From: Massilia rubra
GTDB lineage: Bacteria; Pseudomonadota; Gammaproteobacteria; Burkholderiales; Burkholderiaceae_D
Assembly: GCF_011682065.1 (NCBI RefSeq)
Contig: NZ_VUYU01000001.1
Span: forward strand, 62,001-126,000
Direction of reading: 5' to 3'
DNA length: 64,000 nucleotides
The position numbers were made by a program, and so were the translations under genes. Below, in pieces: positions 5,692-27,038 of this stretch. The notes below the pieces were generated by a model. The model saw only the letters and a program-made list of their open reading frames with translations, had not been told where the DNA came from and searched no databases. Each line of letters begins with the position of its first letter. The stretch's first letter is position 1.

Positions 5692-5784
5692 AAAAACCGT
5701 CATTCCCGCGCAGGCGGGAATCCAAGGCATCTTCGGTTAGCGGCGGTGCCTTGGATTCCCGCCTGCGCGGGAATGACGGTTTTT
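5692..5784. repeat. REPIN-like element, copy 1
   Basis: Two perfect 38-nt inverted arms (5692-5729 and 5747-5784) enclose a 17-nt loop. Each arm itself contains a small REP hairpin, TTCCCGC-GCAG-GCGGGAA at 5703-5720 and its mirror at 5756-5773. The element sits between converging genes and may also act as a terminator. Related copies lie at 26483 and 55875. Confidence 0.85.
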
Positions 5785-25295: not shown

Positions 25296-26390
25296 ATGCT
25301 TTCTTCCCCTGACCAACCCGATCTGTCCGCTTTAGCGCAGTCCATCAAGCTCTGGGGCCGCGAGCTCGGCTTTGGCGAGGTGCGCATCAGCGACGCCGAC
25401 CTGTCGCAGGCCGAAGCGGGCTTGCAAGCCTGGCTCGACGCCGGCCGCCATGGCGAGATGGATTACATGGCCAGCCATGGCATGAAGCGCGCCCGTCCGG
25501 CCGAACTGGTGCCGGGCACGGTGCGGGTCATCAGTGCGCGCATGGATTATTTGCCGCCCGCCACGCCGGACGACTGGCGCGAGCGCGAGGCGGCGCGCCT
25601 GCGCGACCCTGGCGCGGCCGTCATTTCGATCTATGCGCGCGGCCGCGATTACCATAAGGTGTTGCGCAGCCGCTTGCAGCAACTGGCCGAGCGCATCGAG
25701 CGCGAGACCGGGCAACTGGGTTTTCGGGTGTTTACCGATTCGGCGCCGGTGATGGAGCTGCCGCTGGCCGAAAAAGCCGGCATCGGCTGGCGCGGCAAGC
25801 ACACCTTGATCCTGAATCGTGATGCGGGGTCGATGTTTTTCATTGGCGAAATCCTGGTGGACGTGGCGTTGCCGGTCGATGCGCCGGCCAGCGCCCATTG
25901 CGGCCAGTGCAGCGCGTGCATCACAGCCTGCCCGACCCAGGCGATTTTGGCGCCCGGGCGGCTCGATGCGCGCCGCTGCATTTCGTACCTGACCATTGAG
26001 TTAAAAAGCAGCATCCCGGAAGAGCTGCGGGCGCTGATCGGCAACCGGGTGTATGGCTGCGATGATTGTCAGACCGCGTGCCCGTGGAATAAGTTCGCGC
26101 AAAAGGCGGTGGTGCCCGATTTTGATGAACGCAATGCGCTCGGCAGTGCCGATATGGTCAGTTTGTTCGCCTGGAGCGAGGAAGAGTTCGGGCGCAGGCT
26201 GGAGGGCAGTCCGATCCGGCGCATCGGGCACGAGCGCTGGCTGCGCAACCTGGCGGTGGGCCTGGGCAATGCCGCCGAGGGGCGCAAGGGCGATGCCGCC
26301 ATCGTGGCGGCCTTGCGGACGCGCGCGGACCATGACTCGCCGATGGTGCGCGAGCATGTGGCGTGGGCGCTGGGGCGGCATGCTCAATAG
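25296..26390 (+). CDS. queG: Epoxyqueuosine reductase QueG
   Basis: The 364-aa protein contains a cobalamin-binding N-terminal part (WLDAGRHGEMDYMASH) and two [4Fe-4S] cluster motifs, CGQCSACITACPTQAI and CDDCQTACPWN. The HEAT-like C-terminus carries the segment HERWLRNLAVGLGNA. It reduces epoxyqueuosine to queuosine in tRNA, the last step of the pathway. It is divergent from tsaE, an arrangement common in betaproteobacteria. A nested repeat element follows within 45 bp of its stop. Confidence 0.95.
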   Translation: MLSSPDQPDLSALAQSIKLWGRELGFGEVRISDADLSQAEAGLQAWLDAGRHGEMDYMASHGMKRARPAELVPGTVRVISARMDYLPPATPDDWREREAARLRDPGAAVISIYARGRDYHKVLRSRLQQLAERIERETGQLGFRVFTDSAPVMELPLAEKAGIGWRGKHTLILNRDAGSMFFIGEILVDVALPVDAPASAHCGQCSACITACPTQAILAPGRLDARRCISYLTIELKSSIPEELRALIGNRVYGCDDCQTACPWNKFAQKAVVPDFDERNALGSADMVSLFAWSEEEFGRRLEGSPIRRIGHERWLRNLAVGLGNAAEGRKGDAAIVAALRTRADHDSPMVREHVAWALGRHAQ

Positions 26391-26434
26391 CCCCCCGCCG
26401 TTCCTGGCACTGCCAGCAACGACTTCCCGCCTGA

Positions 26435-26607
26435 GAGGCTGTCTCAAAACGCTAAAATCACCGCTAGGCGGTAGACTCTTATCCGTCATTCCCGCGCAGG
26501 CGGGAATCCAAGTTCGCTGCTATGCCACGGAATGGGATTCCCGCCTGCGCGGGAATGACGGTGCTGGAGGTGGTAGTCGTTGAACGCGTCCCTTTTGAGA
26601 CAGCCTC
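26435..26607. mobile_element. MITE (173 bp) inserted into a REP hairpin and carrying a REPIN
   Basis: Perfect 15-bp terminal inverted repeats GAGGCTGTCTCAAAA (26435-26449) and its complement (26593-26607) are flanked by a CTGA duplication (26431-26434 and 26608-26611). Removing the element rejoins TTCCCGC-CTGA-GCGGGAA, a REP hairpin. The interior holds a complete REPIN. No transposase gene is present, so movement would need an enzyme supplied from elsewhere. Confidence 0.85.
26483..26561. repeat. REPIN-like element, copy 2 (inside the MITE)
   Basis: The left arm begins CCGTCATTCCCGCGCAGG (26483) and the right arm ends with its complement at 26561. Each arm has the TTCCCGC/GCGGGAA hairpin seen in copy 1, but the loop differs. 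Confidence 0.85.
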
Positions 26608-26663
26608 CTGAGCGGGAACGACGGTTTGGAATGTAACGATACAACCCTGTCAAATTCTGCTCC

Positions 26664-27038
26664 CTACAAGCGCTTCAAGCGCACCGCCGACCAGTCGCTG
26701 TCCATCGACGCCATCGCCACGCCCGTCACCCCGCGTTCCTTGGCCCACGCAAAAATGGTGTCGCGCGTGAGGTCGGTGGCCTTGGGCGCGCTCGGCTTGA
26801 GGTAAGCCACCCATAAGGACCCCTTCTCGCCCAGCCGCCGCAAGGCGGCAGGGAACCATTTTTCAAGCTCAGCCTGGTTCAGCGCGAAGACCAGCACCAC
26901 GTCGGCCGGCCCTTCTTCCTCGTTGATCAAGCTCTTCGGCAACTGTTCCATCATGGCCGGATGGACCGCGCCATTGAACACCGCCAGCGACCTGGCAGTC
27001 TTCAGGTACATCTTGTCGGCTATCGTCTTTTCACTCAT
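26664..27038 (-). CDS. DUF3052-like protein
   Basis: The 124-aa protein keeps the DUF3052 pattern: DVVLVFALNQAELEKWFPAALRRLGEKGSLWVAYLKPS in the middle and SMDSDWSAVRLKRL at the end (family DWS-x-x-RL). The fold is probably small alpha/beta. The function is unknown. It is cytosolic, with no signal peptide or membrane segment. It lies 33 bp downstream of the DUF2061 gene on the same strand, so a two-gene transcript is likely. Confidence 0.7.
   Translation of the reverse strand: MSEKTIADKMYLKTARSLAVFNGAVHPAMMEQLPKSLINEEEGPADVVLVFALNQAELEKWFPAALRRLGEKGSLWVAYLKPSAPKATDLTRDTIFAWAKERGVTGVAMASMDSDWSAVRLKRL

Follow-up and report, generated by a model that had tools for sequence, protein, structure and literature searches.

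A probable IS1182-type MITE in REP hairpin loops of Massilia rubra that carries a REPIN

Within the 64,000-nucleotide stretch of Massilia rubra DNA analyzed here (the window), a 173-bp non-coding MITE (26435–26607) splits a REP hairpin and itself holds a REPIN, which raises the question of whether such nesting is an accident of one locus or reflects how the element chooses its targets. The original prediction described inverted ends and a CTGA duplication marking a clean insertion, and regarded the nesting of the two kinds of repeat as uncommon. The features of the locus are as follows:

26424–26430, + strand: left half-stem of the target REP hairpin, TTCCCGC (read from the sequence)
26431–26434, + strand: left copy of the CTGA target duplication, equal to the REP hairpin loop (read from the sequence)
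26435–26449, + strand: left terminal inverted repeat GAGGCTGTCTCAAAA, identical to both ends of L141, an element assigned to the IS1182 family
26435–26482, + strand: left arm of the MITE, 48 bp, identical among copies at 46–48 of 48–49 aligned positions
26483–26561, no strand assigned: internal REPIN, 79 bp, two CGTC-tagged REP hairpins and a spacer, inverted relative to the arms (copies C54, C52, C96a and C41 serving as the reference for orientation)
26562–26607, + strand: right arm of the MITE, 46 bp, with the right terminal inverted repeat (26593–26607) at its end
26608–26611, + strand: right copy of the CTGA target duplication (read from the sequence)
26612–26618, + strand: right half-stem of the target REP hairpin, GCGGGAA (read from the sequence)

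The ends of the element, GAGGCTGTCTCAAAA and TTTTGAGACAGCCTC, are terminal inverted repeats that agree at 15/15 positions and, with CTGA on either side, confirm the insertion as first proposed. Joining the two half-stems through one CTGA gives TTCCCGCCTGAGCGGGAA, so that excision does restore a REP hairpin. The REP hairpins to which this one had been likened, at 5703 and 55881, are present, each with a second, inverted REP 53–61 bases further on, and the REPIN within the insert is complete, as claimed, with hairpin cores at 26491–26504 and 26540–26553. The MITE lies between convergent frames, as its left neighbor is a plus-strand ORF (25296–26390, putative queG) and its right neighbor a minus-strand ORF (26664–27038).

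The single-strand fold of 26420–26630 has a predicted free energy of −120.7 kcal/mol (z = −8.7, with 0/200 shuffles as stable), and in the predicted RNA fold pairing persists between the two outer half-stems of the REP and between the two terminal repeats, and the internal REPIN forms a hairpin of its own within them. Because the half-stems and terminal repeats are predicted to be still able to pair, the locus would retain a hairpin despite being split. We note that a second palindromic repeat, of the GTTCC.GGCACTGCC.G.AAC type, adjoins the REP at the window site (26401–26422), at the C48 copy (L010, left flank of the element) and at the orthologous site of the relative G012 (L223); the REP and this palindrome may form a composite repeat.

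Copies of the element and the history of its REPIN

The exact 15-mer end occurs 8 times in the M. rubra genome (a 7.57-Mb draft in 118 contigs), compared to 0 occurrences of the reversed control. At up to three mismatches, the counts (43 and 31) were no higher than those of the controls (46 and 44), and end matches were therefore limited to at most one mismatch. A search with the complete 173-mer, in which the best 40 of 175 candidates were scored and diverged copies may thus have been missed, returned at least seven copies: five of full length (C30, which is the window copy, C48, C54, C52 and C96a), one nearly so (C41, matched at 4–171 of 173), and one truncated (C96b, at L015, matched at 3–127 of 173). 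Taken together with the empty reversed control, these further copies rule out that the inverted ends are a coincidence, which the original prediction would have accepted had there been neither another copy nor an empty-site allele; both were found. The six full-length or near full-length copies measure 173–177 bp and have no transposase gene. Their right arms are 46 bp long in C30, C48 and C54 and 49 bp long in C52, C96a and C41, and C30 and C48 differ from each other at 1 of 173 positions. The flanks differ from copy to copy.

All six of these copies share one 79-bp REPIN, which occupies the same position between the same arms and is 76–79/79 identical among them once orientation is allowed for; none of the six is without it. 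Since the REPIN is common to six of six, it was on board before the MITE spread, and of the two orders of events originally offered, a REPIN already held or one gained later, the former is the better supported and the latter is rejected. In C30 and C48 the REPIN is inverted relative to the arms, and either of them matches C52 at 68/80 positions in the same orientation and at 79/79 when flipped. As C30 and C48 are nearly identical, it is simplest to assume a single inversion in an ancestor common to both, such that the REPIN would have entered the MITE once and later been flipped in that ancestor.

The internal part has the defining structure of a REPIN, in that it consists of two inverted REPs with a short spacer, in a unit that is also found elsewhere. 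A stand-alone REPIN (G000:C32:91924–92003, L016) matches it at 80/80 positions without any arms, and other REPIN-length matches outside the MITE copies reach 86% or less, among the matches listed. The REPs are CGTC-tagged, with CCGTCAT or CCGTCGT 5′ of the stem in 39/82 distinct contexts, a count in which every hairpin was taken from both sides. Four Y1_Tnp matches, two of them near complete, are present in the genome, and the loci around these four, some of which end at contig ends, have no CCCGC-N4-GCGGG hairpin. A RAYT gene flanked by the same REPs, a further mark of REPINs, was thus not seen, in agreement with CGTC REPs having been reported without a dedicated transposase in the part of PMC3733652 available. 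Among plasmid records, 8 match the REPIN part with at most ~8 bases of arm included, and no phage record matched the element.

Insertion sites and their MITE-free counterparts

If the MITE had entered a REP in the window by chance, its other copies should rarely be found in such sequences. Instead, each of the five copies whose ends are intact interrupts a REP hairpin precisely at its 4-nt loop, and the loop is duplicated, giving the pattern CCCGC-[4 nt]-element-[same 4 nt]-GCGGG in each case. The duplicated tetranucleotides are CTGA, GCAG, GAAG, GTAG and GCAG; that four different ones occur, each matching on both sides of its copy, means that the duplications were made locally. Exact 4-bp duplications are therefore present in 5/6 copies that have both ends, the sixth being C41, which has REP halves on both sides with unequal tetranucleotides (GAAG/CTGC) and hence no matching duplication. 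In the truncated copy C96b, the left arm adjoins a REP half and is followed by a REPIN with another spacer, a structure that would be expected if the sequence from the first internal REP to the matching half-REP past the right end had been deleted.

REP halves thus adjoin 7/7 of the copies found, and the palindrome stem score at six of them is 7–9 of 10, compared to a mean of 2.7 at random sites. The genome contains 236 hairpins of the form TTCCCGCNNNNGCGGGAA with at most one mismatch (control: 2), corresponding to a chance of ~3e-5 that a random insertion hits one. While the true number of targets is above 236, because some of the targets used (those with CTCCCGC and CCCCGC stems) fall outside the TTCCCGCNNNNGCGGGAA pattern, even several-fold more would still give only ~1e-4 per random insertion. 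With 7/7 copies adjoining REP halves and 5/5 being loop-exact, the nesting of MITE and REP looks to be a matter of target choice and not of rare coincidence; the nested arrangement originally described is real, and more orderly than was then supposed.

Orthologous loci in relatives, anchored via the neighboring genes, provide the empty sites that the original prediction had proposed to look for. For C54, the two flanks joined together match an unbroken REPIN of G016 at 99/111 positions (the loop of which is GCAG), and for C96a the joined flanks match an unbroken REPIN of G012 at 72/82, both being MITE-free REPIN alleles; the comparison of C52 with G002 aligns in the right flank only (47/54). 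At the window site, next to the putative queG, the six close relatives differ: G002 has a lone REP (loop CTTC), a MITE-free REP allele, G016 a REPIN, G014 and G004 no REP, and G009 a longer gap without a REP, and in G012 the REP is interrupted by an insert of ~60 bp other than the MITE. Within the stretches read, at least one CCCGC-N4-GCGGG hairpin is present in 2/4 of the relatives' loci for C54, 3/5 for C96a, 3/6 for C41, 1/6 for C52, 3/4 for C48 and 0/3 for C96b, for which the 3 loci of relatives are thus without a REP. An exact-string test of 30 of the relatives' loci detected neither an arm nor an end of the MITE.

Two further observations concern the REPs at these loci. In G012, the REP that is split at the window site is the first of a REPIN (L223, minus strand, about 565–500), and the ~60 bp insert lies in its loop and lacks MITE ends; given that this insert is not the MITE, REP loops may more generally be hot spots for insertion. 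In addition, the C96a-site orthologue of G014 (L238) has tandem half-REP copies of the CCGTCGCC.CCGCGCAGAAAA type 5′ of a full REP, as if from replication slippage.

Terminal repeats, transposase and competing explanations

A search for a full-length element with the same ends had also been proposed as a check, and it succeeded in part. The 15-mer forms both ends of L141 (1.8 kb) and one end of L147, the other end of which has 1 mismatch. Both are from Bacteroidota MAGs and have a 526-codon open frame, and the L141 protein scores 439.5 bits against NF033551 (cut-off 270) with the Pfam domains DDE_Tnp_1_6 and DUF772, by which sequence criteria it is a member of the IS1182 family. Counting against an IS1182 reading, L141 and L147 have no 4-bp duplication. 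The exact 15-mer was found at no fewer than 112 loci in a contig scan across genomes, many of them in Bacteroidota and Bacillota, of which L141 and L147 were taken further; as many of the exact matches in other genomes resemble, by eye, terminator hairpins, the 15-mer by itself says little. No full-length element with the MITE arms was found in 391 other genomes sampled from a larger group of the family: in this sample, with the best 2 candidates per genome listed, the arms match 1/392 genomes, namely M. rubra itself. The exact end occurs in 3/392 (M. rubra and two others, once each) and in none of the 16 genus relatives.

Within M. rubra, a full IS1182 transposase was not seen in the 118-contig draft. 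There is one PF13751 match, in a 300-aa frame (25.4 bits, cut-off 25.1), and there are 8 NF033551 matches, the best of which, at 70 bits, is far below the cut-off of 270; two of these putative transposase fragments touch or nearly touch contig ends (C31 and C85). Across the genus, NF033551 matches are present in at least 13/17 genomes and exceed the cut-off in at least 6/17. From at least 14 over-cut-off rows, 10 were scored, together with two rows of G001 just under the cut-off (C182 and C169); two further over-cut-off rows are second pieces of the same elements, and those left unscored are G011:3050972 (L216, one end found), G011:3047369, G004:C203 (L154/L217, no ends found) and G010:C260 (L155, ends of another type). 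The weaker rows L158, L159, L160, L162, L167, L169, L172 and L175 have no GAGG/CAGG-type ends.

Exact 4-bp duplications flank 11/12 of the scored elements, two of them being GGCC (G011c and G005), a self-palindrome that could belong to the ends. The mean stem score of the 12 is 6.0 of 10, compared to 2.7 for randomly chosen sites of the window; among 100000 random draws of 12 sites, none attains 6.0 (Mann–Whitney p = 1.4e-8), and a score of at least 6 is found in 7/12 elements vs 715/20000 random sites. We note that the 12 are partly dependent: the contexts of C182 and C169, both of G001, resemble each other, and the elements of G011 and G005, with stem scores of only 4–6, form one group with an apparently common palindrome. 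Two of the 12, L156 (G001), in GTTCCCGC[TTTC]GCGGGAAC and with ends similar to those of the MITE, and L157 (G012), in GTTCCCGC[GTAG]GCGGGAAC, occupy loops of the same REP kind as the MITE targets. Another IS1182 group, with CAGGCCGTGTAAAAA ends (L153, L165, L177 and L215 in G011, L152 in G005), lies in an apparently different palindrome (TCTGC..GGCC..GCGGA), with 4-bp duplications in 4/5, two of them the ambiguous GGCC.

Taking these observations into account, we consider it highly probable that the window holds an IS1182-type MITE that targets REP loops and carries its own target as cargo, with membership in the IS1182 family being suggested by the ends, the duplication length and the target. 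Against this reading stand the lack of a full transposase in the draft and of a parent element in the sampled genomes, the missing duplications at L141, L147 and C41, and the REP-free loci of relatives at the C96b site. An IS1182-family DDE transposase would move the MITE in trans, recognizing the palindrome, perhaps extruded as a cruciform, and the MITE ends would be joined across the 4-nt loop such that the loop is duplicated and the stem split. The inner and outer REPs could then act as direct repeats for partial deletions of the element, as the one truncated copy, C96b, suggests. On the same truncated copy we base the hypothesis that the internal REPIN either keeps a REP at the site or provides direct repeats for deletion.

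That a different kind of transposase moves the MITE is improbable. REP targeting has been reported for members of the IS3, IS110, IS4, IS256 and IS5 families in the available part of PMC1525189, and the weak transposase fragments of M. rubra may be IS5-like, but the MITE ends equal those of an IS1182 element, and the IS1182-type elements of the genus likewise show 4-bp duplications and palindromic targets, which for two of them are REPs of the same kind. We give still less credit to a spread of the copies by homologous recombination between REPs (gene conversion) rather than transposition. The MITE does sit in REPs and contain two of them, and the truncated copy at L015 has the structure expected of a REP–REP deletion; however, the junctions are at the terminal repeats and not in internal REP homology, the flanks differ among copies, and the duplications differ among copies yet match within each of the five intact ones, which conversion would not yield.

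It is scarcely conceivable that the element is instead a composite REP cluster (BIME-like) which a REP-associated tyrosine transposase spread together with its outer repeats. The two near-complete Y1_Tnp genes and the 80/80 match of the stand-alone C32 REPIN to the internal one would fit such a cluster, but the REP hairpin was not seen in the loci retrieved around the four Y1_Tnp matches, and REP-associated tyrosine transposases are not known for short exact duplications with 15-bp ends. Building on the preferred reading of an IS1182-type MITE, it is also conceivable, if rather doubtful, that the MITE acts as a carrier for a class of REPINs without a transposase of their own: homing to REP loops, it would introduce a REPIN between direct REP repeats, and REP–REP deletion would then exchange the REP or REPIN present at the site for the one brought in by the MITE. 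Were this the case, REPIN spacers would be replaced across the genome, and the C96b copy and the C32 REPIN (L016) would be products or sources of such exchange.

Relation to known systems

Each component of this arrangement is known: REP-targeting insertion sequences, palindrome-targeting IS1182 elements, an IS1182-type MITE, and REPINs. One close match is MITEPye1 of Paracoccus yeei, a MITE with IS1182-like ends and 4-bp repeats (PMC11578231, available in part), and because it has been published, an IS1182-type MITE is not in itself new. Like the window MITE, MITEPye1 is non-autonomous and intergenic, has terminal repeats of the IS1182 type and 4-bp direct repeats, and has a long predicted RNA stem-loop, with its authors inferring mobilization by IS1182. 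It differs in its 18 bp terminal repeats, a comparison made here by description, and the accessible text contains no word beginning with "palindrom" and names neither a REP target nor an internal REPIN.

The IS1182 family, as represented by IS1272 and by L141, L156 and L157, shares with the MITE the type of terminal repeat and the palindromic targets, whereas the MITE has no transposase gene and is 173–177 bp long. According to the portion of PMC5678879 available, IS1272 targets stem-loops and replaces them on insertion, leaving no duplication, unlike the MITE, which duplicates the loop. The same source, however, sets out an alternative pathway (c) with attack at the 5′ of the loops, for which a loop duplication is predicted, and this pathway fits the loop duplication of the MITE.

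Insertion into REPs is likewise shared with IS1397, IS621, ISKpn1, ISPpu9, ISPpu10 and ISRm22, and for some of these every copy lies in REPs (ISPpu9 7/7 and ISPpu10 7/7), as described in PMC1525189, the main text of which does not contain the terms "IS1182" and "MITE". In contrast to the insertion sequences in the part of that work available, the MITE is non-autonomous and carries its own target. Its internal part resembles REPINs, as far as the accessible text of PMC3116915 describes them, in having two inverted REPs and a spacer, and the internal REPs resemble the CGTC REPs in the accessible text of PMC3733652 in having CCGTC 5′ of the stem; unlike known REPINs, the internal REPIN travels inside a MITE with DDE-type ends. 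In the open-access literature searched, including the available parts of PMC10433421 and PMC6053426, we found no report of an IS1182-type MITE that occupies the loop of a REP or contains a REPIN.

The M. rubra family offers a set of naturally occurring insertions, for which relatives supply MITE-free alleles, and these insertions point to IS1182-type ends being directed by structure to the exact loop of their target. The family also combines a MITE and a REPIN, which are different types of genomic repeat, in a single element in which the cargo is the target. The movement and turnover of CGTC-type REPs were left open in the available part of PMC3733652, and this MITE family makes one route for them testable.
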